Shown here: one piece after another, positions 4,003-39,851 of the stretch
Layout: the number at the start of each line of letters is the position of its first letter
How positions within the stretch are numbered: the stretch's first letter is position 1
Assembly: GCF_008802355.1 (NCBI RefSeq)
Contig: NZ_VZRA01000003.1
Span: 356,374-420,373, forward strand
Direction: 5' to 3'
From: Oryzomonas sagensis
GTDB lineage: Bacteria; Desulfobacterota; Desulfuromonadia; Geobacterales; Pseudopelobacteraceae
Length of the DNA: 64,000 nt
The notes under the pieces: generated by a model
What the model was told of the DNA's origin: nothing
The model's database searches: none
The model's input: the letters and a program-made list of their open reading frames with translations, nothing else
Program-made: the position numbers and the translations under genes

Positions 4003-4803
4003 ATGTATAAAGCCTTTTTCGGATTCCGGGAGAAGCCGTTCAGCAAGACCCCCGACCCTCGTTTTCTTTTTCTCAGCGCGGGGCATGAAGAGGCCTTGGC
4101 CCGCCTGGAGTTTGTGCTGGAGGAACGGGAAATAGCCGTCCTTACCGGCGAGATCGGTTGCGGCAAGACAACGCTCTCCCGGGCGCTTATGGACCGGCTT
4201 GGTGATGGCTACCGCTTCTGTTACATCGTCAATCCGCGCCTGACGGGACTGGAATTCCTGCGGACCACGGCCCGCCTGCTCGATATCGAGGAGCCGGCGG
4301 CGCTCAAGGACGAATTGCTTGAGCAGATCAATACGGTCGTCTACGACAGCTACCAGAAGGGGATTTGCCCGGTCATCGTGGTCGATGAAGCCCAGATGAT
4401 CTCCGATGCGGAGGTGTTTGACGAGATCCGCCTGCTGACCAATTTCCAGCTGGATGACCGCAATCTGCTCGCGGTGATCATCATGGGGCAGCCGGAATTG
4501 CGTCCCATGCTGGCTTCGTCCCGGTTCGAGCCCCTGCGGCAGCGGATCGCCCTCAATTACCATCTGGAGCCGCTTACGCTGGAAGAAACCATGGAATATC
4601 TCGATTTCAGGCTTGAAAAGGCCGGCGGTATGCCCGGTTTATTCACCCCCGACGCTGTCCAGAAGATATTCGAGATTACCGGCGGCGTCCCGCGCAAGAT
4701 CAACTCCATTGCAACCAATGCCCTGTTGGTCGCCTACGGCAACGACGCAGCCCTGATCGATTCGACGGTCATCGATGAAATTAAAGACGAACTGATGATG
4801 TAG
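4003..4803 (+). CDS. ExeA-like AAA ATPase
   Basis: This 266-residue AAA ATPase is of the ExeA/GspA family. It starts with the family hallmark MYKAFFGFREKPFSKTPDPRF. Walker A is GEIGCGKT at 49-56 and Walker B is VIVVDEAQ at about 124-131. A sensor-like MGQPEL lies at 161-166 and an RQR stretch at 179-181. ExeA proteins usually carry a C-terminal peptidoglycan-binding region and help assemble secretin channels; this one ends after the ATPase domain. It begins four bases after cheA and sits 15 bases before a cheW, so it is co-expressed with the signalling proteins. Its job there is unknown. It might couple the array to envelope structures, but that is inference. Confidence 0.85.
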   Translation: MYKAFFGFREKPFSKTPDPRFLFLSAGHEEALARLEFVLEEREIAVLTGEIGCGKTTLSRALMDRLGDGYRFCYIVNPRLTGLEFLRTTARLLDIEEPAALKDELLEQINTVVYDSYQKGICPVIVVDEAQMISDAEVFDEIRLLTNFQLDDRNLLAVIIMGQPELRPMLASSRFEPLRQRIALNYHLEPLTLEETMEYLDFRLEKAGGMPGLFTPDAVQKIFEITGGVPRKINSIATNALLVAYGNDAALIDSTVIDEIKDELMM

Positions 4804-4818
4804 AAGGATTCCAACCGC

Positions 4819-5574
4819 ATGAACCTGGCAAAGATTCGGCAAAAAGTCCAAAACAGAGAGGCCCGGGAGCGGACTGTCGAAGCGGAGCGCATCAGTCTGG
4901 ACGCGCCGCCGTTGGAGGCGCCTTCACTCCAGGTCGCCGCCGCCCCTTCTCCCGTTGCCGCTGATGATCGCCCGTCCGTTGCCGATACGGCGGTCGCAGT
5001 GATTCCTGAAAGCCGGCAAAACCCCTTGCCGAGGCGGGCCAGGAATATCGATCCTCTCGACATCATCCTCGCGGGGCGGGCAGCGGCCGGATGCGACGAC
5101 GACCTGCCGCTGGCGTCCGAAGGCCAGGTGGTCGCCGAGGTATCGGAGTACGAGGAAATACTCTGTTTCCGGATATCGGACGAGATATACGGCATCAACA
5201 TCATGGAACTCAAGGAGATCATCAAACCCCGTGAGACGACCGAGGTCCCCCGTGCCCCGCTGTTTATCATGGGGGTGATTTCCCTGCGCGGCGTCATCAT
5301 TCCCATATTCAACATGCGTGAACGCCTTGGCCTCCCTCTGGGGGACCGCACCGGCCGGGAACGTATTGTGATCGCGAAGCGCAACGAAGGGTTCGCCGGC
5401 CTGTTGGTGGACGAGGTTATTCAGGTCGTGCGTATCGGGAAAGAGGAACGCGAACCCGCTCCAGCCGTTCTTGAGGGGATTGACCGGGATTTTGTCTGCG
5501 GCATCGGCCGCACCGGAACCATGATGATCATTCTGCTCAATGTGGCAAGCATTACCGATATCAACCTCTGCTGA
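4819..5574 (+). CDS. cheW: CheW-like adaptor with N-terminal extension
   Basis: This 251-residue protein has a CheW domain at roughly 112-250. Matching features are LCFRISDEIYGINIMELKEI, then ISLRGVIIPIFNMRERLGL. An unrelated Ala/Pro-rich leader of about 105 residues precedes it, starting with the basic segment MNLAKIRQKVQNREARERT. CheW proteins bridge receptors and CheA at the inner membrane. The long leader is about as long as the domain itself and looks unstructured, so it may tether or localise the adaptor. A second, shorter CheW follows at 5648, so the operon supplies two non-identical adaptors. Confidence 0.9.
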   Translation: MNLAKIRQKVQNREARERTVEAERISLDAPPLEAPSLQVAAAPSPVAADDRPSVADTAVAVIPESRQNPLPRRARNIDPLDIILAGRAAAGCDDDLPLASEGQVVAEVSEYEEILCFRISDEIYGINIMELKEIIKPRETTEVPRAPLFIMGVISLRGVIIPIFNMRERLGLPLGDRTGRERIVIAKRNEGFAGLLVDEVIQVVRIGKEEREPAPAVLEGIDRDFVCGIGRTGTMMIILLNVASITDINLC

Positions 5575-5647
5575 AGCACGCCGGTCCCGGCCCTGCCGGC
5601 CGCTGTTCACCACTATGGCTGTTTGAACGGAGCCGCACGAATAGATT

Positions 5648-6118
5648 ATGAAAACAGATCTGCAGAACATAGAGTTGGCGTGTTTCAGCCTGGGTAACAG
5701 GCTCTTTGCGGTGGATATCATGCGCATCAAAGAGATCATCCTGCCCCAGAAGCTTTCCGGTCTGCCCCGGGAGTCGGACCTGCTGGAAGGGGTCATCAAC
5801 CTGCGCGGCGAATTGATTCCGGTCATGGACATGCGGAATCGTTTCGGCATGCCGAAAGCCGATGAGCGCGAGCGCGTCCCGGGCCGACTCCTGATCGTCT
5901 CGCTTCAGGGACAGATGCTGGCTCTGGCGGTGGATAACGTCCAGGAGGTCATCACCGTTCCGGCGGGCGAGATCAAACCCGCTCCCGATATCACCGAAGG
6001 AATCGGCATGGAATACGTTTTGGGGATGTGCCTTTCACATGAGCAGATGTTCATGATCCTGGACATCGACTCCCTGCTTGCCCCCTCTGATATGCGCCTG
6101 GAGTCGCTTCGTGGATAA
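5648..6118 (+). CDS. cheW: CheW-like adaptor
   Basis: This 156-residue protein is essentially a single CheW domain. It contains LACFSLGNRLFAVDIMRIKEI near the start, then INLRGELIPVMDMRNRFGM. It should link receptors to the CheA of this operon. Relative to the upstream CheW it lacks the long N-terminal leader. The stop overlaps the likely GTG start of the HEAT-repeat gene at 6111 by eight bases, which suggests translational coupling. The 73-base gap before it holds no obvious terminator. Confidence 0.92.
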   Translation: MKTDLQNIELACFSLGNRLFAVDIMRIKEIILPQKLSGLPRESDLLEGVINLRGELIPVMDMRNRFGMPKADERERVPGRLLIVSLQGQMLALAVDNVQEVITVPAGEIKPAPDITEGIGMEYVLGMCLSHEQMFMILDIDSLLAPSDMRLESLRG

Positions 6119-8123
6119 TCGGGAAGATATACGCACCGCCCTCAAATCAGCCGACGAAGAACTGCGGCGCGCGGTCATCGATTCCCTGCGCGGCAGGAAC
6201 CTGGAGGATGTGGGCGAGTTTGTTTTTACCGCCATGGGCGATGGCAGCTGGCGGGTGCGCAAGGAAGCGGTCAATGTGTTTGTGGCGGCAGAGCCCTCCG
6301 GCCATTTTATCGCCGAACTGCTGGAACTGTTGCGCGATGAGGGCAATGCCGGGCTGAGAAATTCCGCTGCCGAGGCTATTGTCTTGCTTGGGGCGCGGGC
6401 GGCCCTCCAGTTGAAAACCCTTGCCGCCGACCCCGATGCCGGCGTGCGGAAGTTCGTGGTCGATGTCATGGGGGGGATCGGGGACGTCGAGTTCATCCCG
6501 GTGCTGCTGGCCGCCCTCTATGACTCCGATGTGAACGTTTCCGCCGCCGCAGCCGAACATCTGGGCACCATCGGCGACGCCGGGGTGGTGCCGGAACTGC
6601 TCGCGGCAATCGCCGCGAATGAAAACGCCTTCTTTCGTTTCAGCGTCCTGTCCGCCCTGGGAAAACTCGGGACCCCGGGGCCGGTGCCGGAGGAGATCAA
6701 GAAGCTTGTCGGGCAGGATATCTTCAGCAAGGTGCTCTATGACTGCCTCGGGAGCATCGGTGACCATACGGCCGCACCCATTCTCCTGGAGGGCTTTCTC
6801 TCCAGCCAGAAGAGCGCCCGTTGCGCTGCCGTCAAGGCCTTCAACCGTATCCTGCTCCGTTCCGGCGCCATGGAACGTCAGCGACTCCAGGGGGCAGTGC
6901 GCCGCCTGTCGGGCGGCGAGGTCGTGCCGGCTTTCATGGAACTGCTGGAGGTGGAAGGGCATGATACCGCCCTGGCGGAAGCGGTAACGAACCTGCTGGG
7001 GGTTATCGGCGACCCGCGCGCCGCTGTGCCTCTTTTGGCGGCATATCTCACCGAACGGCTTTCGAGTTTGGCGCTCAACGCCCTTTCGGCTTTAGGCCCC
7101 GCCGGCATGGATACGTTGCGGGAAATCTATCCCAACGCCGACGAAAAGGTGTGCGGCGCCATCTGTACGCTGTTTGGGGAATTGGGCTACCCCGGGGGAG
7201 ACGACCTGATTCGCAGCGCCTTGCGCAGCCCCTCGCCGCTGGTGCGCAGGTCCGCGGTACAGGCCGCCGGCCGGCGGGGACTATCGGACTGCATCCCGGA
7301 GATCATCGGGCTGCTCGAAGAGGCGGACGATGGCTTCTGCGGCGCCATCATCTCCTGCCTTCAACTCCTGGCCCAAAAGGACAGCAACCCCGTCAGGGCG
7401 GTTGCGCGCCAATTGGCCGATTCCGAGCAGCCACAGCGCCGCCGCGACGCGGCCTCGCTCTTTGCCGCCCTGCGTGACGGCGACTACCTGTCGCGGCTCG
7501 TCAAGGACGAGGATCCCTCCGTGCGGCAGACCTCGGCGGCTGCCATTGGGAAGCTCCATATTCCCTCCCTGCAGGGGGTGTTGCAGATTGCCCTGGTGGA
7601 CGAGACCCCGGAGGTGCGCATGGTGGCGGCCGAGGCCTTGGGTGAATCGGGGAACGCCGCTGCCCTCGAGCCTTTGAGGCTGGCCCTGCGCGATGACGAC
7701 TCCCGGGTGCAGTGCGCGGCCCTGAAAAGCATGACCCGCCTGGAACCGGCGGCTATTCTCGACGTGATCGAACCCCTGCTTCCCGCTGCCGGCGGTCTGC
7801 TCATGATCACCTGCCTTGAAGTGCTGGAGTCGTTAGGGGATGCCGCCGCCCTGGACCTGGTGGAGACGGTCCTGGATAACAGGGATGAAGAATTGGTCAT
7901 ATTGGCGTTCAACATCCTTGCCCGTCACGACAAGGACCGAATCCTGCGGAATGCCGAGCGGCTTTTTGCCCATCACCATGCCGGCATCAGGTATGACACG
8001 GCGGTGACTCTGGCGGGACTTGCCGGCCAACGGCCCCGGGCCGTTCTGAAAAACGCCCTCAGGAATGAAGGGAACAATCTGGTCAGGGACCTGATGAAAC
8101 GTCTGTTGAAAGGGGGCGCATGA
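6111..8123 (+). CDS. HEAT-repeat protein of the chemosensory operon
   Basis: This 670-residue protein consists almost wholly of HEAT/PBS-lyase-type repeats. Units of about 31 residues recur with patterns such as DPDAGVRKFVVDVMGGIGD, DDSRVQCAALKSM and DPSVRQTSAAAIGKL. I choose the GTG at 6111, with GGAG seven bases upstream. A TTG at 6078 would extend the frame far into the preceding cheW. Such alpha-solenoids are protein-interaction scaffolds with no catalytic residues. A HEAT-repeat gene beside cheR and cheB has parallels in other Deltaproteobacteria-type chemosensory clusters, as far as I recall. It ends by overlapping cheR by four bases. The partner is unknown. Confidence 0.88.
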   Translation: MDNREDIRTALKSADEELRRAVIDSLRGRNLEDVGEFVFTAMGDGSWRVRKEAVNVFVAAEPSGHFIAELLELLRDEGNAGLRNSAAEAIVLLGARAALQLKTLAADPDAGVRKFVVDVMGGIGDVEFIPVLLAALYDSDVNVSAAAAEHLGTIGDAGVVPELLAAIAANENAFFRFSVLSALGKLGTPGPVPEEIKKLVGQDIFSKVLYDCLGSIGDHTAAPILLEGFLSSQKSARCAAVKAFNRILLRSGAMERQRLQGAVRRLSGGEVVPAFMELLEVEGHDTALAEAVTNLLGVIGDPRAAVPLLAAYLTERLSSLALNALSALGPAGMDTLREIYPNADEKVCGAICTLFGELGYPGGDDLIRSALRSPSPLVRRSAVQAAGRRGLSDCIPEIIGLLEEADDGFCGAIISCLQLLAQKDSNPVRAVARQLADSEQPQRRRDAASLFAALRDGDYLSRLVKDEDPSVRQTSAAAIGKLHIPSLQGVLQIALVDETPEVRMVAAEALGESGNAAALEPLRLALRDDDSRVQCAALKSMTRLEPAAILDVIEPLLPAAGGLLMITCLEVLESLGDAAALDLVETVLDNRDEELVILAFNILARHDKDRILRNAERLFAHHHAGIRYDTAVTLAGLAGQRPRAVLKNALRNEGNNLVRDLMKRLLKGGA

Positions 8124-8998
8124 CTTTATCCCTGGATACAGGACAGCCCATGTCCGATGATGAGTTCCGGGTCATACGGGACAGTATTTACAGCCATTGC
8201 GGCATTTTTTTCGACGACGACTCAAAATACCTTCTGGAGAAGCGTCTTGCCCGCCGCCTGACCGCCCTGAGCCTGAATAATTTCCGCGAATATTATCACT
8301 TTTTGAAATACGACCGGAATAAAGACCAGGAAATGATGGACATCATGGATGTCCTTACGACCAACGAAACCTATTTCTTTCGGGAATCGTTCCAGCTTTC
8401 CGCTTTCACGGATGAAGTCGTTCCGGAACTCATCAGCGTAAAGTCGGCTCGGGGGGACCGAACGTTGCGCATCTGGAGCGCAGGCTGTTCAACGGGAGAA
8501 GAACCCTACACCATCGCCATGCTGCTGCGGGACATGCCCCGTTTGCGGGGGTGGAAGATCGAGATCATCGGCACCGACATCAGCCAGCGGGTCCTTCAGC
8601 ACGCCCGGCGCGGAGTCTACACGAAATCGTCGTTTAGGGCGACCGAAGAACGCTATATCAAACGTTTCTTTTACGAATATGACGGCGGGCTCAAGGTGAC
8701 GGACGATATCCGGGAAATGGTCACCATCAGCCATCTCAACCTCTTCGACAAGATCCGCATGATGATGCTCGGCAAGATGGATCTCATCTTCTGCCGCAAT
8801 GTGATCATCTATTTCGATCTGGCGGCCAAGAAGAGAGTCGTCGAAGAGTTTCACCGCTCCCTCCATGACGGAGGTTTCCTGCTTCTGGGGCATTCCGAGT
8901 CGCTGATGAACGTCACCACGCTTTTTACGCTGCGCCACTTCAAGAATGATATGATCTATCAGAAGCCGGAGCGCTCTGCACTGGGAGACGATTTATGA
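8120..8998 (+). CDS. cheR: Chemoreceptor glutamate methyltransferase CheR
   Basis: This 292-residue protein transfers methyl groups from S-adenosylmethionine to glutamates on chemoreceptors. It has an N-terminal helical domain (about 11-80) and a SAM-binding domain. The latter contains RIWSAGCSTGEEPYTIAM, IIGTDISQRVL and MDLIFCRNVIIYFD. The ATG at 8120 overlaps the end of the HEAT-repeat gene and has AAAGGGGG in front. An internal ATG at 8150 is a less likely start. The stop overlaps cheB in ATGA, so cheR and cheB should be translated together. Confidence 0.94.
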   Translation: MTLSLDTGQPMSDDEFRVIRDSIYSHCGIFFDDDSKYLLEKRLARRLTALSLNNFREYYHFLKYDRNKDQEMMDIMDVLTTNETYFFRESFQLSAFTDEVVPELISVKSARGDRTLRIWSAGCSTGEEPYTIAMLLRDMPRLRGWKIEIIGTDISQRVLQHARRGVYTKSSFRATEERYIKRFFYEYDGGLKVTDDIREMVTISHLNLFDKIRMMMLGKMDLIFCRNVIIYFDLAAKKRVVEEFHRSLHDGGFLLLGHSESLMNVTTLFTLRHFKNDMIYQKPERSALGDDL

Positions 8999-10056
8999 GA
9001 AGGCTCAAGGTGCTTGTCGTAGACGATTCCGCCTTCAGCAGACGCACCATCACCAAGATGCTCGAGGGACTTGAGTGTGTCGAAGTGGTCGGCTACGCCA
9101 CCAATGGCGAGGAGGGGATCCACAAGGTGGCAACCCTTAAGCCGGACCTCGTCACCCTTGACCTTGAGATGCCGAAAATGGACGGATTTACGCTGCTGCG
9201 CATCCTGACGGTCCGCTATTCGACCCCGGTGATTATCGTGAGCGCCCTGAGCAGTGCAGACAAGGTGTTCAAGGCCTTGGAGCTGGGCGCCCTGGATTTC
9301 GTGGCAAAGCCTTCCAGCGGGGCCTCCAACGATCTGCTGCTCATCAGGGAAGACCTTCAGCAGAAGGTGCTCCAGTTTGTCAATCAGGGCTTGCCGCGGT
9401 TAAAGCAGCCACCGTTGCCGTCCCATGAAAGGGGGCGGGGAGATGCGGGCGCGGCGAAGCCCGGCGTTGTTGGCCAATCGCCCTTCGATCTTGTCGCCAT
9501 CGGTGCCTCAACCGGCGGGCCGCCGGCGCTGCAATTTTTCTTCTCCGCATTCGAGAGGGCATACCCCTTTGCCGTCGTGGTGGCCCAGCATATGCCGTCA
9601 GGGTTCACCCACGCCTTTGCCGAGCGCTTGAACCGCGCCTCCCTGTTCGAGATAAAGGAGGCGGTAGATGGCGATTTGGTGCTGCCGGGCAGGGTGCTGA
9701 TAGCCCCCGGAGGTTCGAACCTCGTGTTGGAACTGCACAACGGGCGGGCGGTTGCGCGGGTCGTCCCTCCCACGAGTGCCGACCGTTATGTGCCGTCGGT
9801 GGACGTCATGTTGGAATCCTGTGCCGATATCTACAAAAAGCGCATGATTGCCGTCATCCTGACCGGCATGGGAAATGACGGCACCAAGGGCGTTCGCAAA
9901 GTCAAAGGCCAGGGCGGCTTTGTGATCGCCGAATCCGATGAAACGGCCGTTGTCTACGGGATGCCGCGCGAAGCCGTAGCGACCGGCCTTGTGGACAGGG
10001 TTGTCCCCATGCAATGCGTGCACCGGGAAATCCTGGCCAAAGGCCCATTTACCTAA
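8995..10056 (+). CDS. cheB: Receptor methylesterase CheB
   Basis: This 353-residue protein has a receiver domain (about 1-125, phospho-Asp within LVTLDLEMPKMDG) joined to a methylesterase domain (about 160-350). The esterase triad is visible: Ser in AIGASTGGP, His in VVAQHMPSGF and Asp in LTGMGNDG. It removes methyl groups or deamidates Gln on receptors when phosphorylated by CheA. It closes the chemosensory operon; the following leuS is 75 bases away. Having both CheR and CheB implies that methylation-dependent adaptation operates, and thus that cognate receptors exist elsewhere in the genome. Confidence 0.95.
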   Translation: MRRLKVLVVDDSAFSRRTITKMLEGLECVEVVGYATNGEEGIHKVATLKPDLVTLDLEMPKMDGFTLLRILTVRYSTPVIIVSALSSADKVFKALELGALDFVAKPSSGASNDLLLIREDLQQKVLQFVNQGLPRLKQPPLPSHERGRGDAGAAKPGVVGQSPFDLVAIGASTGGPPALQFFFSAFERAYPFAVVVAQHMPSGFTHAFAERLNRASLFEIKEAVDGDLVLPGRVLIAPGGSNLVLELHNGRAVARVVPPTSADRYVPSVDVMLESCADIYKKRMIAVILTGMGNDGTKGVRKVKGQGGFVIAESDETAVVYGMPREAVATGLVDRVVPMQCVHREILAKGPFT

Positions 10057-10131
10057 TCTCGTATCGCCGCCGGTACGCACACGTGCTCTTTATACGTAAT
10101 CCAATTTTATGGTCCAGAAAGGAACATCATT

Positions 10132-12603
10132 GTGGAACAGAAGTACATCCCCAAGGATATAGAACAAAAATGGCAGCGCTGTTGGGAGGAAGCGGCATCC
10201 TTTGCCGTCACCGAAGATCCGGATAAGAAGAAGTATTATCTGCTGGAGATGTTTCCCTATCCCTCCGGCAGGATACATATGGGCCACGTGCGCAATTATT
10301 CCATCGGCGACGTGGTCGGCAGGTTCAAGAAGATGCGCGGCTTCAACGTGCTTCACCCCATGGGATGGGATGCCTTCGGGATGCCGGCTGAAAACGCCGC
10401 CATCCAGAATAAGAGCCATCCGGCCAAGTGGACCCATGAAAACATCGACTATATGCGCGGCCAGCTCAAGAAAATGGGGCTTTCCTACGACTGGGGCCGC
10501 GAACTTGCCACCTGCGACGTGGCCTATTACCGCTGGGAGCAGAAGATCTTTCTGGAGATGCTCGCCAAGGGGCTGGCGTACAAGAAGACCTCCTTTGTCA
10601 ACTGGTGCCCGAAATGCGAGACCGTGCTGGCCAACGAACAGGTGGAGGACGGCGCCTGCTGGCGGTGCGACAGCGAGGTCAAGCAGAAGGAGCTCGATCA
10701 GTGGTTCTTCCGCATCACCGATTACGCCGAGGAGCTGCTGGAGTGGACCTTCAAGCTCCCCGGGTGGCCGGAGCGGGTGCTGACCATGCAGCGCAACTGG
10801 ATCGGCAAGAGTATCGGCTGCGAGATCGATTTTCCCCTGGAAGGGCGCAGCGAGTCCGTCAAGGTCTTCACGACCCGCCAGGATACGGTCTTCGGCGCCA
10901 CCTTCATGTCCCTGGCCCCCGAACACCCCCTGGCCCGACAGGTGACCACTTCCGACCGGAAAGCCGAGGTCGACGCCTTTATCGAGAAGGTCAAAAAGAC
11001 CGACCGCATCAAGCGGACCGCCGATGACTTTGAAAAGGAAGGGGTCTTCACCGGTTCCTACTGCATCAATCCCCTCACCAAGGCCCGCATGCCGGTGTAT
11101 CTGGCCAACTTTGTCCTGACCGACTACGGCACCGGCGCGGTCATGGCGGTGCCGACCCACGACCAGCGCGATTTCGAGTTTGCCCGTAAATATTCGTTGC
11201 CGCTCCAGGTCGTGATCCAGCCGGAAGGGGAGAGCCTCGATACCGCCTCCATGCAGGCCGCCTTCACCGAGGTCGGAACACTGGTCAACTCGGGCCGGTT
11301 CGACGGTCTGAAGAGCGATGCCGCCAAAGAGGCCATCGCCGATTACCTGGAGCAGGAGGGGATCGGCAAGAAGACGGTGAATTTCCGTTTGCGCGATTGG
11401 GGCATCTCCCGGCAGCGCTACTGGGGCAACCCCATCCCGGTCATCTACTGCGACGACTGCGGCGTGGTGCCGGTGCCGGAACAGGACCTGCCGGTGCGGC
11501 TCCCCATGGACGTGGAGTTCAGCGGCGAAGGGGGAAGCCCGCTGGCCAAGCTGGACTCCTTTGTCACCTGCACCTGCCCCAAATGCGGCAAGGCGGCGCG
11601 GCGCGAGACCGACACCATGGACACCTTCGTCGAGTCGTCCTGGTATTTCCTGCGCTACTGCTGCCCCGACTTCCAGGACGGCCCCCTGGACAAAAAGCGG
11701 GTGGATTACTGGATGTCCGTTGACCAGTATATCGGCGGTATCGAGCACGCCGTCCTGCATCTCCTGTATGCCCGTTTCTTTACCAAGGTGTTGCGCGACC
11801 TGGGGTACGTCTCCTGCGACGAACCGTTCACCAACCTGCTGACCCAGGGCATGGTCATCAAGGACGGCGCCAAGATGAGCAAGTCCAAGGGCAACGTGGT
11901 CGATCCCAATGCCCTCATCGAGCGCTACGGCGCCGATACGGCCCGCCTCTTCTCCCTGTTTGCAGCGCCGCCGGAAAAGGATCTGGACTGGAGCGACCAA
12001 GGGGTGGACGGCTCGTTCCGTTTCATCAACCGCGTGTGGAAACTGGTCCATGACCGCCTCGACCTGGTGAAAAACGCCGCTGCGCCGGACCTGGCAACGC
12101 TTACGACCGAGGAGCGCACCCTGCGCCGTGCCGTCCACAAGACCATCAAAAAAGTGACCGAGGACATCGAAGAACGGTTCCATTTCAATACCGCCATCGC
12201 ATCGATCATGGAACTGCTCAACACGCTTCAGCCCGCGGAACTCCAAACGCCGCAGTACGGCGCCGTCATGAAAGAGGCCCTGGAAACCACGGTGCTGCTG
12301 CTGGCTCCCTTTGTCCCGCACGTGAGTGAGGAGTTGTGGCAGCGCCTCGGCAATGCCACGCCCCTTTCCCGCACCGCCTGGCCGGAATACGACCGGGATG
12401 CGGTCGTGGACGAAGAGGTGCTGGTTGTCGTCCAGGTCAACGGGAAGCTCCGTACCCGGATCACGGTGAGTGCCGGGACCAGCATGGAGGAGCTCGAAAA
12501 GTCTGCCCTGGCGGACGAAAAGGTGCTCCCGTTTCTCGAGGGCAAACAGGTGCGCAAGGTCATCTGCGTGCCGGGCAAGCTGATCAACATCGTGGTGGCG
12601 TAG
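10132..12603 (+). CDS. leuS: Leucyl-tRNA synthetase
   Basis: This class I synthetase of 823 residues charges tRNA-Leu. The HIGH-type motif is [14 protein letters not shown] near residue 45 and the KMSKS loop is AKMSKSKGN. The editing (CP1) domain includes [20 protein letters not shown] and the threonine-rich [16 protein letters not shown] zinc-type knuckle CTCPKCGK lies near residue 485. The start is GTG at 10132 with AAAGGA about nine bases upstream. Full length and all motifs are as expected. lptE and holA follow, probably in one transcript. Confidence 0.98.
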
Positions 12604-30661: not shown

Positions 30662-30987
30662 GTCTTACGATAATAAAATGAGGTCTAATAATAGCCTAAA
30701 AAATTGCCAAGAGCTTTGTTAAATTATCCGACACGGGACCTCTCATACATCTAAAAAAGTGTAAAAATTACTGACAGGTTAGTCTCGTGCCCTTATCATG
30801 TTTGTGAATATCAAATATATGTATTTGCATATTTAGCTTGTTGTTAATATTAATGAAACGTGCAGCTTAATTGGAGATGAAAAGTAAATGTAAAGCAAAG
30901 CAATACTGGTCTCGCTGTTTAAGGTGGCACACAAATTGCTTCTAATTTCTGTAGTAAACAAAGCGCTGCACTTATTGGGGGGATAAG
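30662..30987. other. AT-rich intergenic region at the left edge of the island
   Basis: These 326 bases contain no open frame I can support. The composition changes sharply from the GC-rich acyl-CoA ligase gene to A+T-rich sequence. The only recognisable element is the sigma-54 promoter at 30925-30939. No repeat, attachment site or transposase remnant was seen, although a degraded one could be missed by eye. Confidence 0.7.
30925..30939 (+). promoter_or_regulatory. Sigma-54 (RpoN) -24/-12 promoter of the PEP-CTERM gene
   Basis: The sequence TGGCAC, five bases, TTGC is an exact match to the sigma-54 core consensus, with GG at 30926-30927 and GC at 30938-30939. The predicted start of transcription is near 30951, some 37 bases before the ATG. 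Sigma-54 control of PEP-CTERM genes through the PrsK/PrsR two-component pair is established in the exosortase literature; here the activator is not in the window. Confidence 0.8.
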
Positions 30988-31728
30988 ATGAAACTAACAA
31001 ATTTTAAAATTACCAAGGCTATCCTCGCAGCTCTAGCGATATTTTTTGTATCGGGAGTTGATGCTAATGCAACCTTGATTTATTCAAATAATTTTGAGGA
31101 TACCGTTGGAAGTGAATGGTCAGTCAATACAACATCTGTAACCCCCATAGGCAATCGTCACTTTTTAGGTGATTTTTCCAACGACTCTACAACTCTTACT
31201 CTGAGTGGCCTTTCTGCAGGTTTAGCAACTGTATCATTTGATGTGTATTTTATCCGATCATGGGACGGCGACAACCAGGCTTTTGGCCCTGATTATTTTA
31301 ATGTGGCAATCAACAATTCTCAGCTTCTACACCAATCTTTCAGCAACGGTGACCTCAGTATGCAGTCAAACGCATCACAAGCTGCTGAACGCTATACCCT
31401 TGGATATTCCTATTACAATGGCCTCCCCGGATATAATGTAACATATTCCAACATGGATTCAGTTTACCACTTTGTCCTTACGCTCCCAAGCCTCTCCAAC
31501 CTCATGGCTATTACTTTTTCGGGTAAAGGTTTGCAAGATAACTATGTCACTGGATTAGATGGCTCTTCATATCTTGACGAATCATGGGGGCTCGACAATG
31601 TAATTGTGGATGTTGCCCCCGTACCGGAACCTTCCGGTCTCTTGATGCTCTTTACCGGTGGGGCTATATTGCTGATATTGTGTTGGAGGAAACCATTTAA
31701 TAGTGCCAGACTTTATTTAAATATTTAA
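30988..31728 (+). CDS. PEP-CTERM sorting-domain protein
   Basis: This 246-residue exported protein has a signal peptide (basic start, hydrophobic 12-25, likely cleavage after DANA). The body is Ser/Thr/Asn-rich and beta-type. The C-terminal sorting signal is VPEPSGL, a hydrophobic helix (about 216-231) and a short basic tail (WRKP). PEP-CTERM proteins are cleaved at the PEP motif by an exosortase and are linked to exopolysaccharide-bearing biofilms. The tail runs about ten residues past the basic cluster, longer than usual. No exosortase is in the window. A good GGGGGG ribosome site precedes the ATG. Codon use is AT-rich. Confidence 0.85.
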   Translation: MKLTNFKITKAILAALAIFFVSGVDANATLIYSNNFEDTVGSEWSVNTTSVTPIGNRHFLGDFSNDSTTLTLSGLSAGLATVSFDVYFIRSWDGDNQAFGPDYFNVAINNSQLLHQSFSNGDLSMQSNASQAAERYTLGYSYYNGLPGYNVTYSNMDSVYHFVLTLPSLSNLMAITFSGKGLQDNYVTGLDGSSYLDESWGLDNVIVDVAPVPEPSGLLMLFTGGAILLILCWRKPFNSARLYLNI

Positions 31729-31768
31729 ATCGTTGCAGACAAACACTTTCTTTGTAATGTATTGTAAT

Positions 31769-31793
31769 ATCTAAATTATATTCCAATTTAGAT
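31769..31793. repeat. Perfect 9-base inverted repeat, AT-rich
   Basis: ATCTAAATT and its complement AATTTAGAT are separated by seven bases. It lies 41 bases after the PEP-CTERM stop and about 80 bases before the outer-membrane gene. The weak A-T stem without a T tract is a poor terminator. Nearly the same palindrome recurs at 35487-35506. Confidence 0.5.
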
Positions 31794-31871
31794 TGAAACT
31801 AATTGAATAGTCGACCAATTGGCTGGTAAGTTGTTGTTTAATTGAATTTATTCTGTCTGAGCGAAAGGAAA

Positions 31872-33920
31872 ATGATGTTCGCCCAGTTTCTGCTATACCC
31901 CCTGATTGCTCTGATCGTTTTGTTCCCACAATTTTCTTCGGCAACAGAAGATGCCCACACAATGTTTATGAAGGGTATGTCACTGGAGGCATCTCTCCAG
32001 ACGTTTGCAGCGCGTAGTTGTTTTGCTAAAGCGACCCAGATAGAGCCAGACAATACGGGTTATAAAGAACATAACGCGTGGTTCCTCAATGAATATGGCT
32101 TCTCTGAAGAAGCCGAAAAGTTTTTTTTAAATTTGGTAAAAATTAAACCGACTGATACTATCTATCGTGGACTTGCCTGGAACCAATTGGCTGTCGGGCA
32201 TCTGGCTGAGTCTGTTGCAACATATCGAAAAGTTATTCCTGATATATCATCAACATTCCTTGAGTCGAGGACATTAGTTAGTATCCGTCGTCGGCTTAGC
32301 GAAGATAATGCCGCTAAAATAAATAAGCTTCTTGTCCATCTCTCCCAGTCACCATCGGATACCTCTGCTCAACAAGAACTGTTCAGAACATATACCTATC
32401 AGAGGTTGTGGGACGATGCCTTTCGCATCGGTCAACAAATTCGCAACGATGATCCTAACAATCTTCATTTTCGCTGGGAGTTTGCGCGCATGCTTTTTTG
32501 GAGTAATCGACTTGAACAAGCCGACTCTGAGTTTGCATCTATGGCCGCAACTCATCCAGACAATCCTTTTATACTTTGGGAATGGGCAAAAGTTCAGTCG
32601 GCAAGAAATAGGCTTGAAGAGGCCGGAAAAAATCTTGAGAGGGCATTACTACTTGCACCGGCAACACCCGAAATTATCAAAGATTTGGCCGAACTGCATG
32701 CTCGTAGGGGGGACAGCCAGAAATCTTTAAAATCAACTCAACTACTTCTTCAAAACAAGGAACGACCGCTAATTGCGGCCTTGACAGAGGCGCGCTGTAA
32801 CCATTTTCTTGGGAATGGAAATAAAGCACAGCAACTATACAAACAGATTCTTGCCTTATATCCTGCCAATCAGGAAGCTCTCTGGGGACTTGCTGAAATT
32901 TCCGTTAAAACTGGCCCTGTTTACGATGCGATGAATGCTATTAAACAACTTGAAACTATTAACGATAGTGACCCACGTATTTATGAATTGCTAGAGATAC
33001 TTAAAATATCAAGCTTGCCACGAATAACTGTTCGGACAGATTGGTACAGCAATTCTAATAATTATTCCCGTTTAAATAGTGGTTTTGATTTTGAAGGCCC
33101 ACTGTGGGTGGGACTGTTAACCAAAACTGGCTATATCTACTCTAGGTTTCGCCAAAACGGTTTTAATACCATTAACCGTCAATCAGTTTTTGTGCAGGCA
33201 GAAAAGAAAATTCAACACTATCTCGCTATAACCGGTCGGTTGGATGGCAACTTCTATGACAATCAACAAAATCACCTAAACTTACGCCTGTCTTCAACCG
33301 TTGAACTTAATTCTTTAGGCGTAGTTAAGCTAAGTTATGACCATATTGACATAATCGACACAGAACCGGCCTTTGGTAATCAATTCTATAACCCTGTCGT
33401 CTCTATAGGCGCAGCACGTCTAAAGTTGACCACAAATGACTATTCTGTTTATCTTCGACAAGGGATCGTCAAGGAATGGGCTCTGTGGGGAAAACTGACA
33501 TATGGCGATTATTCTGACGATAATCTTAAACTTAGCTCCGTTGTTGGAGTAGATTATTCACCAGAACTGTTTCCAAATTTTAAGGCATATTATAGTTACT
33601 TTTTTTTGGATTATTCCCATAAAGCTCTAGAGAGTGCGTATTTTGACCCTTCAAATTTTTCTGCCCACACTACCGGAATGGCATACCGCGTAAAATCAGA
33701 TCGCTTTATCTACGGAGGGGAGTGGAACCTAAACTATCTTCAACGTAGCGGGGGCATTGGCAACACTATTTCAATCTTTACCGGCCTTGATATTGGTAAC
33801 ACCCAAGGGCTGCATTGTGAGGCAAAGTATTTTTATCAGAATAGAGGAGAAAATCGGGATTCGTTTAGTGGTCATTATGCCGCCCAGCAAATTCTGTTGT
33901 CTTATTTTGTCTTGTTCTAG
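31872..33920 (+). CDS. TPR-containing outer-membrane beta-barrel protein (polysaccharide export)
   Basis: This 682-residue protein has a signal peptide (MMFAQFLLYPLIALIVLF, cleaved near FSSATE). A tetratricopeptide superhelix occupies about 25-390, with helical pairs such as NPFILWEWAKVQSARNRLEEAGKNLERALLLAP. From about 400 to the end alternating polar/aromatic strands look like a beta-barrel, closing with YFVLF, an aromatic C-terminus expected by the BAM machinery. The architecture is that of PgaA/BcsC-type exporters, which pass a polymer across the outer membrane. I start at the ATG at 31872 with AAAGGAA close upstream (the next ATG is equally good). The synthase gene follows after nine bases. 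Confidence 0.82.
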   Translation: MMFAQFLLYPLIALIVLFPQFSSATEDAHTMFMKGMSLEASLQTFAARSCFAKATQIEPDNTGYKEHNAWFLNEYGFSEEAEKFFLNLVKIKPTDTIYRGLAWNQLAVGHLAESVATYRKVIPDISSTFLESRTLVSIRRRLSEDNAAKINKLLVHLSQSPSDTSAQQELFRTYTYQRLWDDAFRIGQQIRNDDPNNLHFRWEFARMLFWSNRLEQADSEFASMAATHPDNPFILWEWAKVQSARNRLEEAGKNLERALLLAPATPEIIKDLAELHARRGDSQKSLKSTQLLLQNKERPLIAALTEARCNHFLGNGNKAQQLYKQILALYPANQEALWGLAEISVKTGPVYDAMNAIKQLETINDSDPRIYELLEILKISSLPRITVRTDWYSNSNNYSRLNSGFDFEGPLWVGLLTKTGYIYSRFRQNGFNTINRQSVFVQAEKKIQHYLAITGRLDGNFYDNQQNHLNLRLSSTVELNSLGVVKLSYDHIDIIDTEPAFGNQFYNPVVSIGAARLKLTTNDYSVYLRQGIVKEWALWGKLTYGDYSDDNLKLSSVVGVDYSPELFPNFKAYYSYFFLDYSHKALESAYFDPSNFSAHTTGMAYRVKSDRFIYGGEWNLNYLQRSGGIGNTISIFTGLDIGNTQGLHCEAKYFYQNRGENRDSFSGHYAAQQILLSYFVLF

Positions 33921-33929
33921 GAGGGGCAC

Positions 33930-35471
33930 ATGTCCATAAATACAGCCATAAAGAGCTGGCTGGATGATATTCAGGGTAAGAAAAAATATCAACGATACAA
34001 AGAACAAGAAACTCGTACCAGAAGGGTCTTGGGGCAAATATTTGCAATTCTCAATATTCCGTGTGCGGTGTTTTATTTCTCTTGGTGTGTTTATAAAGCT
34101 AATTGGCAGTATTGGTATACTTTCATACCTTTTATTTTAAGTGAAAGTGTATTCCTTGTTCACTACCTACTCTGGATTAATTTGCTCTGGTACAAACGCC
34201 ATCACCACCCTGAAGGGGTTATTTCTCAAAAAAAATATTCAGTAGACGTCTTTATTCCTGTTTGCAGAGAGCCGCTTGAAATCGTAAGACGGACGGTTAT
34301 GGCCGCCTGCACTATTGATTATGAGAACAAGATTGTTTACATCCTCGACGATGGCGAAGACGATAAACTTCTCTCTATGGCCGAGGAATTTTGTATAGGC
34401 TATATCCGTCGTCCCACCCATGAAAACCGCAAAGCTGGCAACCTTAATTATGCATTTAGTCGAACCAATGGAGACTTGATCCTTGCTCTTGATGCCGATC
34501 AAGTTGCTGAAAGTAATATTTTGAAAAGTATTGTCGGCTATTTTTCAATTCCTCGTATTGCTTTTGTACAGACTGAACAGCGCTTTAACCTACCGAAAAA
34601 CGATCCATGGGGAAATTCTGACGAGGTTTTCTACAAAGCCATGCAGTCTGGTAAAGATAATGATAATGCTGCCATTTCTTGCGGTAATGGAGTCGTCTAT
34701 CGTCGAGAAGCATTGATGGAAATTGGAGGGTTTTCAGAGTGGAACTTAGTGGAAGACCTTCACACATCTATGCGTATCCATGCTAAGGGGTGGAAAACTG
34801 TATACCATGATACAGCCTTTACTATTGGCCATGCTCCGGAAGATGTTTGCAGCCACCTGAAACAACGATGGCAATGGGCAGTGGATTCGTTGCGACTTTT
34901 TTTTTGGGATTCGCCTCTGCGTCACAAAGGGCTCTCTTGGAGGCAAAAAGCTCAGTATCTGCACTTTGGCTACAATTACATCTCTTTCGGCGTTTTTTTA
35001 CCGATTTTTTTCCTCCTACCTATTTGGTCTCTTTTCACACATAATTTCATGCTTAAGGCGAATTTGTCGGAATACTTTCTTGCCAGATTACCATACTTTA
35101 TTGTCTATTTGATAGCTAACAAGCTTCTCACGGATGGCCTCAACAACTATAAAGTATTTCAGTGTCAAGCGGGACTTTTTTATGTGTATTTCAGCGCTGT
35201 GGTGACTGCTCTTCGCTGTCGCACAAAGCTTCCTGACTACACTGTAACTAGCAAGGTCAAAAAACATTCCCTGTTCACGACAAAGATTTTATCATGTTGG
35301 CCTCATATGCTCATTTCCCTGTTTTCACTTATAGCAATAGTATATGGTATTGTGACAATACATAATGATCCCTGGTTTTTAATAGTAAATATTTTTTGGG
35401 CGACCTGGACTATCGTTACCCTTAGTAGATTTATCGGTCTTAGCTTGTGGCCCCAAATGTACATGCGATGA
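33930..35471 (+). CDS. Processive family 2 glycosyltransferase (cellulose/PNAG synthase-like)
   Basis: This 513-residue inner-membrane synthase has two N-terminal helices (about 35-56 and 62-88). A cytosolic GT2 domain follows, with SVDVFIPVCREP, DD at 140-141, DAD at 188-190, CGNGVVYRR near 251-259, VED at 274-276 and QRWQW at 312-316. At least four helices lie after residue 350. These are the landmarks of BcsA-like synthases that make and translocate a beta-linked chain. Two deviations: the closing motif has Gln where QxxRW has Arg, and no PilZ domain follows. The polymer is unknown. The stop overlaps the next start in ATGA. Confidence 0.85.
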   Translation: MSINTAIKSWLDDIQGKKKYQRYKEQETRTRRVLGQIFAILNIPCAVFYFSWCVYKANWQYWYTFIPFILSESVFLVHYLLWINLLWYKRHHHPEGVISQKKYSVDVFIPVCREPLEIVRRTVMAACTIDYENKIVYILDDGEDDKLLSMAEEFCIGYIRRPTHENRKAGNLNYAFSRTNGDLILALDADQVAESNILKSIVGYFSIPRIAFVQTEQRFNLPKNDPWGNSDEVFYKAMQSGKDNDNAAISCGNGVVYRREALMEIGGFSEWNLVEDLHTSMRIHAKGWKTVYHDTAFTIGHAPEDVCSHLKQRWQWAVDSLRLFFWDSPLRHKGLSWRQKAQYLHFGYNYISFGVFLPIFFLLPIWSLFTHNFMLKANLSEYFLARLPYFIVYLIANKLLTDGLNNYKVFQCQAGLFYVYFSAVVTALRCRTKLPDYTVTSKVKKHSLFTTKILSCWPHMLISLFSLIAIVYGIVTIHNDPWFLIVNIFWATWTIVTLSRFIGLSLWPQMYMR

Positions 35472-36370
35472 AGTTTGGAATTTACCATCTAAATTATAAT
35501 TTAGATAGAGCTGCTCTTGCTATTCTTGAAAAAAAATATGGAACCGAAATTTCCATCCTTTCTTTTTATAGAGCCTGGAATGATTGCAAGATTGAAGATG
35601 ACCTGCCTTGGCTGAGTTGGCTTTTGTCTGCGCCAAAAGAAATCCTTTTAACATGGGAACCTTGGTCCATCAATTCTGAATTTGGTGTGCTCGAAAAGCA
35701 GCCCCATTTTTCACTTATAAACATTACCGCCGGAGTATTTGATACCTACATTAGGGCATTTGCCTCTACTCTGGCAGCTTGCCCAAAGGCTATTTTACTA
35801 CGTCCGATGCATGAAATGAATGGCTCTTGGTACCCTTGGGGTGGCACTGTAAATAATAATACACCTGAGGAATTTCTGAAAGCTTGGAACCATATCAGAA
35901 CACTTTTTTTTGAAGTTGGTGCATCAAATGTTAAATGGGTCTGGTCGCCATATACTTCATCATATCCAGATACTCATGAAAACAGAATCTGTAATTATTT
36001 TCCTGGTGATGACCAAATCGATATGATAGCTCTTGACGGCTACAATTGGGGGGCGTCAACTGAATGGAGTAATTGGCATAGTTTCGTTGATTTGTTCAGA
36101 GATGGGTATGATATTGTAACTTCTCTTTCAAGAAGACCTGTGATAATTGGCGAAGTCGGGTGTGCAGAGTTAGGCGGAGAAAAGCCAGATTGGATAAGTG
36201 ATATGTTTTCAATTCTGCCATCACGATTTGAGCGGATAGAAGCGTTAATTTGGTTTGATATTAACAAGGAATGCGATTGGCGTATAGCTTCTTCTGCTTC
36301 TTCAATGCGTATTTTCAAGAGCAGATCGCATATGTTTTTTGCCTCGTGCGCAAGTTGTCCTATCAAGTAG
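35468..36370 (+). CDS. GH26-like glycoside hydrolase without signal peptide
   Basis: The 300-residue product has a TIM-barrel glycosidase pattern like family GH26 (beta-mannanase type). The acid/base Glu lies in LLRPMHEMNGSWYPWGG at about residue 119. The nucleophile Glu lies in RPVIIGEVGCAELGG at about residue 232. Other matches are VKWVWSPY and MIALDGYNW. The start ATG at 35468 overlaps the synthase stop, so translation is coupled. There is no signal peptide or membrane helix: the first strand begins at residue 2. Secreted hydrolases usually accompany such synthases, so a cytosolic one is odd. The substrate is unknown; GH26 includes beta-mannanases and related enzymes. Confidence 0.78.
   Translation: MKFGIYHLNYNLDRAALAILEKKYGTEISILSFYRAWNDCKIEDDLPWLSWLLSAPKEILLTWEPWSINSEFGVLEKQPHFSLINITAGVFDTYIRAFASTLAACPKAILLRPMHEMNGSWYPWGGTVNNNTPEEFLKAWNHIRTLFFEVGASNVKWVWSPYTSSYPDTHENRICNYFPGDDQIDMIALDGYNWGASTEWSNWHSFVDLFRDGYDIVTSLSRRPVIIGEVGCAELGGEKPDWISDMFSILPSRFERIEALIWFDINKECDWRIASSASSMRIFKSRSHMFFASCASCPIK
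35487..35506. repeat. Perfect 20-base AT palindrome within the GH26-like gene
   Basis: ATCTAAATTATAATTTAGAT is fully self-complementary. It covers codons 7-13 of the hydrolase and repeats the arms of the inverted repeat at 31769-31793. It could be an operator or a cruciform site, or chance in AT-rich DNA. Confidence 0.45.
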
Positions 36371-36505
36371 ACAGTTTATGGTAAGTTGATGTTCCGTCCC
36401 AAGTGTTCAGCTGCACCATATCGATTAAAGGCTGATGATGTACTCTTATAGCTTGCCTGAGCGGAGGCTATTTTAATGAAATGGATAAATTGAATTCGGA
36501 GTACC

Positions 36506-37283: not shown

Positions 37284-39851
37284 ATGAAGTTGCGCTCCAA
37301 ATCTTTGCCGATATTGTCTGTGTCTCTGGCTGGGATGTTTCTGTTGCTCTATTTTGTTACCAAGGTGTTCCTGCTCGATAGCTTTGCCAGGATCGAAGTG
37401 CGGGAAGCCGCAGAGAACGTGGAACGAGCGGTCAACCTGATCAACGATGAAGCCAATAACCTCAACATAGTCTGTGGTGATTATTCCGCTTGGGATGATG
37501 CCTACCGCTACGTGAGGGATGGCAACCATGCTTTTGAAAAATCGAATTTGACCGCCCCCACCTTCGCAAAGCAACGTCTCAACCTGATCATGTATCTCGA
37601 CAGTGCCGGGGATGTCATCTTCGGCAAGGTCTTTGATCTTGAAAAAGGCCGGTTTACGCCAGTTCCTGCCGGATTTTTTCGCCACATCGCTCCCGGGAAC
37701 CTGCTGCTGAGCCACTCCACGCCCGACAGCACGGTCAAAGGTGTCATCAACCTGCCGGAAGGCCTGATGATAGTCGCTTCTCGGCCGATACTGACCAGTG
37801 AGTACAGGGGGCCCATCCGGGGCACGTTGATCATGGGGCGGTACCTGAATGCGTCGGAGGTTGCCGGTTTGGCAACGATGGCCCGCCTTTCCCTGCGCCT
37901 GCTGCCAGGAGGGGCAACGAGCGTCTTGGGCGAGGATGGGGTGATGCTGAACGAGGCCAGCCCACGTACGGTCGTGGCGGACGGATTCCGCTATATTAAC
38001 GGATATGCCTTGGTAAAGGATATTTACGGCCACAAGGCTTTTATTGTCAAAGTAACCGACCGGCGCACCATCTATGGAAGGGGGATGCGGGCCGTAGGAT
38101 ATTTCTTGCTCTGCTTCTTTGGCTTGGTTCTGGGATTTGCGGTCATCGTGCATTTTTTGCTGAAAAAACTCGCCGTGTCGCAGCAACAGGGTAAGGAGCT
38201 TGAGCAGCGCTACAGTCTGGTTATCGAGGGGGCCAACGAGGGGATCCTCATCACGGAGCGGACAACCGGGGCGATCATAGAATCCAACGGTGCGATCCAG
38301 AACTATCTGGGATACACCGCTGAAGAGTTGATCGGCCTGTATCTCGGTCAGCTTGCCTTTGGCGATGCCGCCATAACCGATACCCTGATAGAAAGGCTTT
38401 TGCAGCAAAAACGGGAGTATCGCCTCCGTCGTAAAGACGGCTCTGCCCTTGATGCTGAATTGAGCGCCGGCCTGATACCCTATGACGGCAGGGAAGCCCT
38501 GTGCATTATGGTCAAGGATATCAGAGAGCGAAAACAGTTTGAGGAAACCTTGTTTTTTCAGGCAAATCACGACCTTCTGACCGGCATTCCCAACCGTTAT
38601 CTTCTCCATGACCGCCTGGAACAGGCCCTGGCGGCGGCACGACGGGAAGGGCATATCGTGGCGGTCCTGCTTTTGGATCTGGACAACTTCAAGATCATCA
38701 ATGATACCTACGGTCATCCGGTTGGTGATCAACTTCTGAAAAGCGTTGCCAATCGGCTGAAATCCGTTGTCCGGAGCGGCGATACCATCGCCCGGCTCGG
38801 CGGCGATGAATTCGTGATTATCCTCACCCGCATCGGCAGGATTGAGGACGTGATCCTGGTGGCGGAACACCTTTTGAAACACTTTTTCAAGCCCTTTGTG
38901 GTCAATGACAATGAGTTCTTCGTGTCGCCCAGTATCGGGCTCGCCCTGTACCCCAACGACGACGACAGCGCGGCGGCCCTGCTCACCAAGGCCGACACGG
39001 CGATGTATCACGTCAAGGACAAGGGAAGGGCCGGATTCCAGTTCTTTACAACCGAGATGAACACTCGCGTCGTGGACCGTATGGAGCTGGAAGTCGGGCT
39101 GAGACGTGCCCTTGAACGGGGAGAATTCGTCATCCATTATCAGCCAAAGGTCGAGTTGGCCACCCGGCGGATACAGGGGATGGAAGCGCTGTTGCGCTGG
39201 AATCATCCCGAGCGTGGCTTGATTCCGCCGGATACGTTCATTCCCCTGGCGGAAGAAACCGGTCTGATTATCATGATCGGCGAGTGGGTGTTGCGCACGG
39301 TGTGTGAGCAGAGCAGTAAGTGGCAGGCGGCGGGGCTGCCGACGATGAAGATGGCGGTAAATATTTCGGCGCGCCAATTCAAGCAGCAGGACCTGGTGGA
39401 GCGAATAGGTGCAATCCTTGCCGAAACCGGTTTTGACCCCGGGCTCCTGGAGCTGGAGCTTACCGAAAGCTATCTCATGAACAATGTCGATGAGGCGGTT
39501 GCAAAACTTCACGGGCTCAAGAGTATGGGACTCGGCCTCTCTCTGGACGACTTTGGAACGGGCTATTCGTCTCTGGGCTATCTGAAGCGGTTTCCCATCG
39601 ATGTCGTGAAGATAGACAAATCCTTTGTGGACGATATTCTTATTAATCCGGATGACGCGATTATTGTGCGGACCATTATCCTTATGGCGCACAACCTCAA
39701 TATGAAGGTCGTGGCCGAAGGGGTGGAAACCGGGGAACAATTGGATTTTCTTGCTGAGCACGGCTGCGAGATGATCCAGGGATACTACTTCAGCCGGCCC
39801 CTGCCTGCCGATGGCTTTGCGGCAATGGTTCGCACGTGGGGTATCGAGTAA
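37284..39851 (+). CDS. CHASE4-PAS-GGDEF-EAL cyclic-di-GMP signalling protein
   Basis: This 855-residue inner-membrane protein has helices near 10-30 and 267-290 that flank a periplasmic sensor resembling CHASE4 (NLNIVCGDYSAWDDAYRYV). After it come a PAS domain (about 305-420), a GGDEF domain (about 425-585) and an EAL domain (about 595-850). The GGDEF motif is intact (RLGGDEFVIIL). The EAL domain retains GMEALLRW, ELTES, DDFGTGYSSL and KIDKSFV, so both synthesis and breakdown of cyclic-di-GMP are possible. It sits just downstream of the polysaccharide island and a terminator. Which activity dominates cannot be told from sequence. Confidence 0.93.
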   Translation: MKLRSKSLPILSVSLAGMFLLLYFVTKVFLLDSFARIEVREAAENVERAVNLINDEANNLNIVCGDYSAWDDAYRYVRDGNHAFEKSNLTAPTFAKQRLNLIMYLDSAGDVIFGKVFDLEKGRFTPVPAGFFRHIAPGNLLLSHSTPDSTVKGVINLPEGLMIVASRPILTSEYRGPIRGTLIMGRYLNASEVAGLATMARLSLRLLPGGATSVLGEDGVMLNEASPRTVVADGFRYINGYALVKDIYGHKAFIVKVTDRRTIYGRGMRAVGYFLLCFFGLVLGFAVIVHFLLKKLAVSQQQGKELEQRYSLVIEGANEGILITERTTGAIIESNGAIQNYLGYTAEELIGLYLGQLAFGDAAITDTLIERLLQQKREYRLRRKDGSALDAELSAGLIPYDGREALCIMVKDIRERKQFEETLFFQANHDLLTGIPNRYLLHDRLEQALAAARREGHIVAVLLLDLDNFKIINDTYGHPVGDQLLKSVANRLKSVVRSGDTIARLGGDEFVIILTRIGRIEDVILVAEHLLKHFFKPFVVNDNEFFVSPSIGLALYPNDDDSAAALLTKADTAMYHVKDKGRAGFQFFTTEMNTRVVDRMELEVGLRRALERGEFVIHYQPKVELATRRIQGMEALLRWNHPERGLIPPDTFIPLAEETGLIIMIGEWVLRTVCEQSSKWQAAGLPTMKMAVNISARQFKQQDLVERIGAILAETGFDPGLLELELTESYLMNNVDEAVAKLHGLKSMGLGLSLDDFGTGYSSLGYLKRFPIDVVKIDKSFVDDILINPDDAIIVRTIILMAHNLNMKVVAEGVETGEQLDFLAEHGCEMIQGYYFSRPLPADGFAAMVRTWGIE

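Follow-up and report, generated by a model that had tools for sequence, protein, structure and literature searches.

A compact gene cassette of Oryzomonas sagensis pairs a BcsA-related synthase and a GH26 hydrolase with a PEP-CTERM protein and may export a beta-glucan

Every synthase-dependent exopolysaccharide operon is described as encoding an enzyme that degrades its own polymer (PMC8829089), and the degrading or modifying enzyme of such systems acts in the periplasm (PMC8829089; PMC7112194). For the exosortase, described in 2006, the acceptor of the cut PEP-CTERM protein was drawn as an unknown nucleophile bound for the exopolysaccharide layer (PMC1569441). Here, we describe a locus of the soil bacterium Oryzomonas sagensis that holds parts of both kinds. 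It lies in a stretch of 64,000 nucleotides of contig NZ_VZRA01000003.1 (the window) and consists of four consecutive genes for a PEP-CTERM protein, an exported TPR protein with a predicted outer-membrane barrel, a GT2 synthase and a GH26 hydrolase (Table 1). We posit, with moderate confidence, that this cassette is a compact synthase-dependent beta-glucan export module that cooperates with an exosortase-sorted surface protein.

The cassette resembles the Bcs system (BcsA, BcsB, BcsZ, BcsC) in that a BcsA-related membrane GT2, an endo-glucanase gene and a TPR/barrel exporter gene stand in one cluster. Unlike Bcs, it has neither PilZ nor BcsB (the rest of the genome was not searched for BcsB), carries a GH26 without signal peptide instead of BcsZ, and shows QxxQW in place of QxxRW, VED in place of TED, and a PEP-CTERM partner. 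With BgsBA, which makes the mixed-linkage beta-glucan of Sinorhizobium meliloti, it shares a BcsA-like synthase without PilZ and a beta-glucan product, the latter being predicted for the cassette. BgsA, however, keeps QxxRW, an Arg at the position of BcsA residue 299 and a C-terminal tail binding cyclic di-GMP (c-di-GMP), whereas the window protein has Glu, QxxQW and no tail, and the two-gene bgsBA operon lacks GH26, TPR/barrel and PEP-CTERM genes.

NfrBA-YbcH of Escherichia coli, for which a polymer of N-acetylmannosamine (ManNAc) has been proposed (PMC8669469), has the same core of GT2 synthase and TPR/barrel exporter, but NfrB keeps QxxRW and TED and has an MshEN domain, the system includes neither a hydrolase nor a PEP-CTERM gene, and similarity between the barrels was not detected. 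PgaABCD, the system for poly-N-acetylglucosamine (PNAG), also combines a GT2 with a TPR/barrel exporter; the cassette differs in lacking the deacetylase and PgaD, and it falls far below the cut-offs for PgaC (53.8 bits versus 422) and PgaA (40.3 versus 367). As in the XrtA/PEP-CTERM system with PepA of Aquincola, a TGGCAC sigma-54 promoter serves a PEP-CTERM gene located before a TPR gene, and PrsK, PrsR and XrtA are present in the window genome. In contrast to that system, the next TPR gene is here the one for the TPR/barrel exporter, and the cluster has its own synthase and GH26. Lic26A of Clostridium thermocellum shares with the window GH26 an identity of 36.5% over 222 positions, both catalytic Glu residues and a C-terminal NKExDWRI motif. 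It is, however, secreted for the digestion of plant glucan, whereas the window GH26 is a single-domain protein without signal peptide encoded beside a synthase.

As the tested features of bcs, bgs and pga did not hold, the cassette should not be filed under any of the three, and its classification as a bcs or pga variant was rejected. A first-pass annotation of the bare sequence had already seen a mismatch with Bcs and Pga, which the membership tests bear out, and the homologues do not lie within bcs, pga or alginate loci. Because its part list is that of synthase-dependent exopolysaccharide systems, the cassette should nevertheless work like one, in agreement with the type of polysaccharide cassette proposed in that annotation.

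Recurrence of the cassette was examined by searches for the GH26, which covered 395 genomes of the phylum Desulfobacterota and 277 of the class. Close relatives of the window GH26 (E about 1e-78 or better; clade A) were found in Oryzomonas (the window, L005 of O. japonica Red96, and L050) and in G633 (L066, the same locus as L006), G601 (L067), G618 (L068), G440 (L038), G134 (L039), G193 (L040), G414 (L041) and G175 (L042). Wherever a clade A GH26 occurs in the searched genomes, the preceding gene is a relative of the window GT2. The pair is found in six Desulfobacterota genera besides Oryzomonas and recurs across genera, families and classes, so that chance adjacency was rejected. A search of the same 395 genomes with the GT2 ranked the clade A genomes first and then a second group, A2, whose identity is 35-39%. 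The GT2 tree shows the same division into three groups as the GH26 tree, a pattern that joint inheritance of the two genes would produce. TPR/barrel, GT2 and GH26 stand in this order in L067 and L068 as well, which means that the triplet singled out by the first-pass annotation is not a one-off, and in L038 a related barrel end precedes the GT2.

The synthase scores 250 bits against TIGR03030 (CelA/BcsA), under the cut-off of 699, and its best match among solved structures is BcsA (E 4e-45). Neither a PilZ domain (Pfam scan) nor a BgsA-type tail was found in it. The synthases of clades A and A2 were aligned with BcsA, BgsA, NfrB, a cyanobacterial synthase and the GH26-linked synthases of group B; the S. 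meliloti reference, an unannotated record, was taken as BgsA by its pSymB location, its tail and its Arg at position 299. QxxQW is present in 18/18 clade A and A2 synthases and QxxRW in every other aligned synthase, and the same division separates V/I/L-ED from TED. The QxxQW clade is supported by 100/99 and 95/100 in two trees and is separate from BcsA. By alignment and phylogeny, the synthase is thus placed in a distinct BcsA-related clade. None of the papers retrieved by a literature search mentions the QXXQW motif, and the best plasmid matches of the GT2 are BcsA and other GT2 at an identity of about 33% or lower.

Related loci differ in their make-up. In group A2 (L103, L105-L110), which occurs in the majority of the genomes searched from one class of Desulfobacterota, the QxxQW synthase is followed by a TPR/barrel protein of ~1,400 residues without a GH26, and several loci encode a lipoprotein with an M48 peptidase match. 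Group B (L045, L047, L048, L049) combines a TPR/barrel protein, a QxxRW GT2 and a GH26 with signal peptide or lipobox, without a PEP-CTERM gene; it seems to be another unnamed GH26-linked synthase family. Within clade A, the synthases of L040 (6288-8456) and L041 (8869-11010) carry one more hydrophobic helix and, at the C-terminus, a SPOR domain that would link them to peptidoglycan.

The first-pass annotation had called the hydrolase GH26-like, and its family was confirmed. The top matches in the PDB are all C. thermocellum Lic26A, a lichenase (1,3-1,4-beta-glucanase), with E 3e-43, versus E 6e-8 or worse over ~90 residues for the mannanases; the default assignment as a mannanase was therefore rejected. 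Both catalytic Glu residues are conserved across all aligned members. ATG 35468, in overlap with the GT2 stop (ATGA), is the likely start and was preferred over GTG 35447. Clade A GH26 begin right at the catalytic domain, and an N-terminal hydrophobic segment is present in none of the nine measured (0/9), compared with 4/4 in group B, where signal peptides or a lipobox occur. The maximal 12-residue mean hydrophobicity of the first 60 residues is <=1.6 in the nine and >=2.1 in group B; some of the starts outside the window were picked by eye. Because they have no signal peptide, the clade A GH26 are predicted to be located in the cytosol. The periplasmic polymer-degrading or -modifying enzyme that is general to synthase-dependent systems was hence not found, the GH26 of the cassette having no signal peptide. 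This contradicts the first-pass annotation, which had grouped the glycosidase with the usual periplasmic components: no clade member has a signal peptide, and the enzyme is of lichenase type.

The first-pass annotation had left the identity of the polymer unknown; it is probably a beta-glucan, because synthase-dependent operons encode a degrader of their own polymer, a lichenase-type GH26 stands beside a BcsA-like synthase, and L040 encodes a BcsS-family protein. The latter is a barrel gene (PF17036, 55 bits versus 24) that precedes the pair; the synthase of this locus (1057-10139) lies behind Wzz-, ATPase- and kinase-like genes of an exopolysaccharide locus and is followed by a PEP-CTERM-like gene. 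The same BcsS-family gene would also fit plain cellulose (1,4-beta-glucan), made by a minimal and divergent system for cellulose whose BcsZ was replaced by GH26, as would the proximity of the synthase to BcsA. The residue at the BcsA-299 position is reported to be Glu or Asp for cellulose synthases but Arg for BgsA/CrdS (PMC6821405), and the Glu of the window synthase is cellulose-synthase-like. As Arg occurs at this position in L040-L042, the clade contains both states, and the marker does not decide on the linkage. The missing BcsB and PilZ, the QxxQW motif, the separation of the clade from BcsA and the mixed-linkage glucanase as nearest relative of the GH26 all speak against cellulose, which we consider unlikely though far from negligible.

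The PEP-CTERM protein has a signal peptide (judged by reading the sequence, not by a predictor), a predicted beta-rich body, the PEP motif, a helix and a basic tail. Together with the exosortase in the genome, these are the features of an XrtA substrate. It stays under the cut-off of the corresponding Pfam model (PF07589, 16.6 versus 20.7). XrtA of the window genome scores 233 bits versus a cut-off of 106, and the XrtA-type sugar transferase, the XrtA-type deacetylase, PrsK and PrsR are likewise above cut-off. The sigma-54 consensus pattern has two matches in the genome, one of which is the site upstream of the PEP-CTERM gene, and 0/1000 shuffles of this upstream region scored as high. The same sigma-54 layout was described for PEP-CTERM genes by Haft and colleagues (PMC1569441), and their combination of a sigma-54 site upstream with PrsK and PrsR in the genome was found here. 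The upstream sites of L038, L039 and L066 are good (matched by 4-5/1000 shuffles), and that of L050 is at chance level (170/1000). An AlphaFold model of the PEP-CTERM protein, built on 3 sequences, is beta-rich with a predicted local distance difference test (pLDDT) value of 51. A fold search with it in the PDB gave no match below E 0.001, so we claim no carbohydrate-binding fold, and the comparison with PDB sequences returned only chance antibody matches.

Before or after the pair, a PEP-CTERM-like gene adjoins it in eight clade A genomes, and an exosortase above cut-off is present in all of them (8/8). Genes under the curated cut-off, some with VPLP or VPAP instead of PEP, were called by their architecture of signal peptide, PxP motif, helix and basic tail; L042 was left unjudged due to a contig end. 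In G601 and G618, which keep TPR/barrel-GT2-GH26, the flanks that were read contained no PEP-CTERM gene, and no exosortase was found genome-wide. Both are present in G633, which belongs to the same genus as G618. The association has no exceptions but is small in size (Fisher p 0.022 by genome, 0.048 by lineage). The PEP-CTERM gene, whose co-occurrence the first-pass annotation had proposed to test, is a genuine associate and tracks the exosortase across genomes. It is dispensable to the core cassette, as the clusters of G601 and G618 have no such gene next to them.

This dispensability also fits a gene that belongs independently to the PrsR/XrtA regulon and is a mere neighbour of the cassette, the polymer partner being the product of the XrtA locus. 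The gene has its own sigma-54 promoter and a gap of 143 bp to the next gene, XrtA has its own exopolysaccharide locus (L051), and single-gene operons are common for PEP-CTERM genes (PMC1569441). Against this stands that the eight genomes with an adjoining PEP-CTERM-like gene belong to five genera and include two unlike protein types in a changed position, and that the window genome holds only three PEP-CTERM matches, of which that of the window scores best. We regard mere neighbourhood as fairly improbable.

The TPR identity of the exporter candidate is certain, whereas its barrel is predicted: no curated barrel model matched the C-terminal region, and an outer-membrane barrel is inferred because this region matches other synthase-linked TPR/barrel proteins (hhalign 97% and 91%). 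Of the TPR scaffold and outer-membrane barrel proposed in the first-pass annotation, the former stands and the latter is predicted by homology. Among the general features of synthase-dependent systems, the membrane GT2 and the TPR protein are present, and the outer-membrane pore is predicted from homology only. The start ATG 31872 is likelier than TTG 31842. In L006 (3550-5667; L066 6660-8777), a gene near the pair encodes a 705-residue exported-looking protein without a Pfam match, which might replace the TPR/barrel protein.

Families, gene order, motifs, promoter site, missing signal peptide and exosortase co-occurrence are read from the sequence; for sugar, linkage, export, GH26 role and protein-polymer contact, we infer the following scheme. 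The membrane GT2 would polymerise a nucleotide sugar, most likely UDP-glucose, to a beta-glucan of mixed 1,3/1,4 or plain 1,4 linkage and extrude the chain, which the TPR/barrel protein would conduct across the periplasm and the outer membrane. The translationally coupled GH26 may act as an endo-beta-glucanase in the cytosol, removing or editing glucan chains that are on the wrong side of the membrane. The PEP-CTERM protein would be expressed from the sigma-54/PrsR promoter, processed by the XrtA exosortase and, once placed on the surface, act with the glucan as matrix or anchoring protein. The first-pass annotation, supported in part, did not include the QxxQW change, the sigma-54 promoter and the dispensability of the PEP-CTERM gene. 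Instead of clearing glucan, the GH26 could process imported or recycled oligosaccharides or be exported without a classical signal. The absence of a signal peptide from every clade member fits this, but the strict linkage and the overlapping reading frame with the synthase do not, nor does a cassette without an importer gene, and we rate such a role as rather doubtful.

Several points weigh against the beta-glucan export module. QxxQW alters a catalytic signature, so that the donor may not be UDP-glucose or the product not a beta-glucan; mixed linkage is not favoured by the Glu at the BcsA-299 position. The relative L006/L066 has PEP-CTERM-GT2-GH26 without a TPR/barrel gene, and the AlphaFold model of the TPR/barrel protein (2 sequences, pLDDT 37) was discarded, leaving the barrel without structural confirmation. 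Four of the PEP-CTERM-like genes (L038, L039, L040, L041) are under the curated cut-off, the exosortase association is built on few lineages with G601 85% complete, and the exosortase may mainly serve the separate XrtA exopolysaccharide locus on contig C7. A beta-mannan or other non-glucose chain, with QxxQW in 18/18 clade members marking a different sugar donor and GH26 being mostly a mannanase family (PMC13390465), is highly improbable given how much better the enzyme matches Lic26A than any mannanase.

The four open reading frames were confirmed at the coordinates first assigned to them, and Pfam and NCBIfam confirm their families. They lie in an AT-rich island flanked by an AMP-binding ligase gene on one side and an acyl carrier protein (ACP) phosphodiesterase gene on the other, with a GC content of 0.41 versus 0.59. 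GC is 0.40-0.42 and GC at third codon positions (GC3) 0.34-0.40 in the cassette genes (n=4), compared with 0.58 and 0.74 in the preceding gene, a contrast that upholds the atypical DNA of the first-pass annotation. The flanking genes are the same in both other Oryzomonas genomes with the island (L005, L050), and no such synthase was found in three further Oryzomonas genomes searched, two of them <90% complete. This patchy occurrence, in combination with the composition, points to horizontal acquisition. At the island ends, one 9-base repeat was found and judged chance; no tRNA or Rfam family was found within the window. A scan of genome contigs with the GT2 returned O. japonica, one metagenome-assembled genome and one weak chance match. 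Two genes past the cassette and outside the island, a CHASE4-PAS-GGDEF-EAL protein is encoded (37284-39851) with a GC content nearer to the host and in the same position in L005 and L050; it could affect c-di-GMP near the cassette.

Table 1. Features of the cassette and its surroundings; positions count from the first nucleotide of the window.
Feature	Position	Strand	Basis
AT-rich island	30662..36505 (limits approximate)	.	Composition and gene order in L005, L050
Sigma-54 (-24/-12) promoter site, TGGCACACAAATTGCTT	30925..30941	+	63 bp before PEP-CTERM start codon
PEP-CTERM protein	30988..31728	+	TIGR02595, 19.4 bits versus cut-off 16
PEP-CTERM sorting signal, VPEPSGLLMLFTGGAILLILCWRK	31621..31692	+	Residues 212-235
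Exported TPR protein, C-terminal predicted outer-membrane barrel, putative exporter	31872..33920	+	TPR_19, E 4e-21
GT2 processive synthase, BcsA-related, no PilZ	33930..35471	+	TIGR03030, Pfam and PDB matches
VED motif replacing TED	34749..34757	+	Alignment
QRWQW motif replacing QxxRW (Gln315 for Arg)	34863..34877	+	Alignment
GH26 endo-beta-glucanase, Lic26A type, no signal peptide	35468..36370	+	PF02156, 49.5 bits versus 20.2
GH26 acid/base Glu116	35813..35815	+	RPMHEMNG, HE invariant in alignment
GH26 nucleophile Glu229	36152..36154	+	Aligned with Lic26A residue, Gln in chain 2cip

A bolder version of our proposal, in which our confidence is low, is that the unnamed GT2 clade with QxxQW and V/I/L-ED makes a new bacterial beta-glucan that is policed from the cytosol by a lichenase-type GH26, and that this polymer is the acceptor or binding partner of the exosortase-processed PEP-CTERM protein, giving a minimal polymer-plus-protein matrix module. 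The synthase clade represents a natural change in a signature motif that is kept by cellulose, mixed-linkage and ManNAc-type synthases. A cytosolic glycanase would, if true, break the rule of the periplasmic hydrolase in synthase-dependent systems. With a three-gene synthase cassette and its own PEP-CTERM gene, the latter lacking where the exosortase is missing, the locus offers a small system in which a direct link between protein and polymer can be tested, and it may provide a simple route to what the exosortase surface-protein system acts on.

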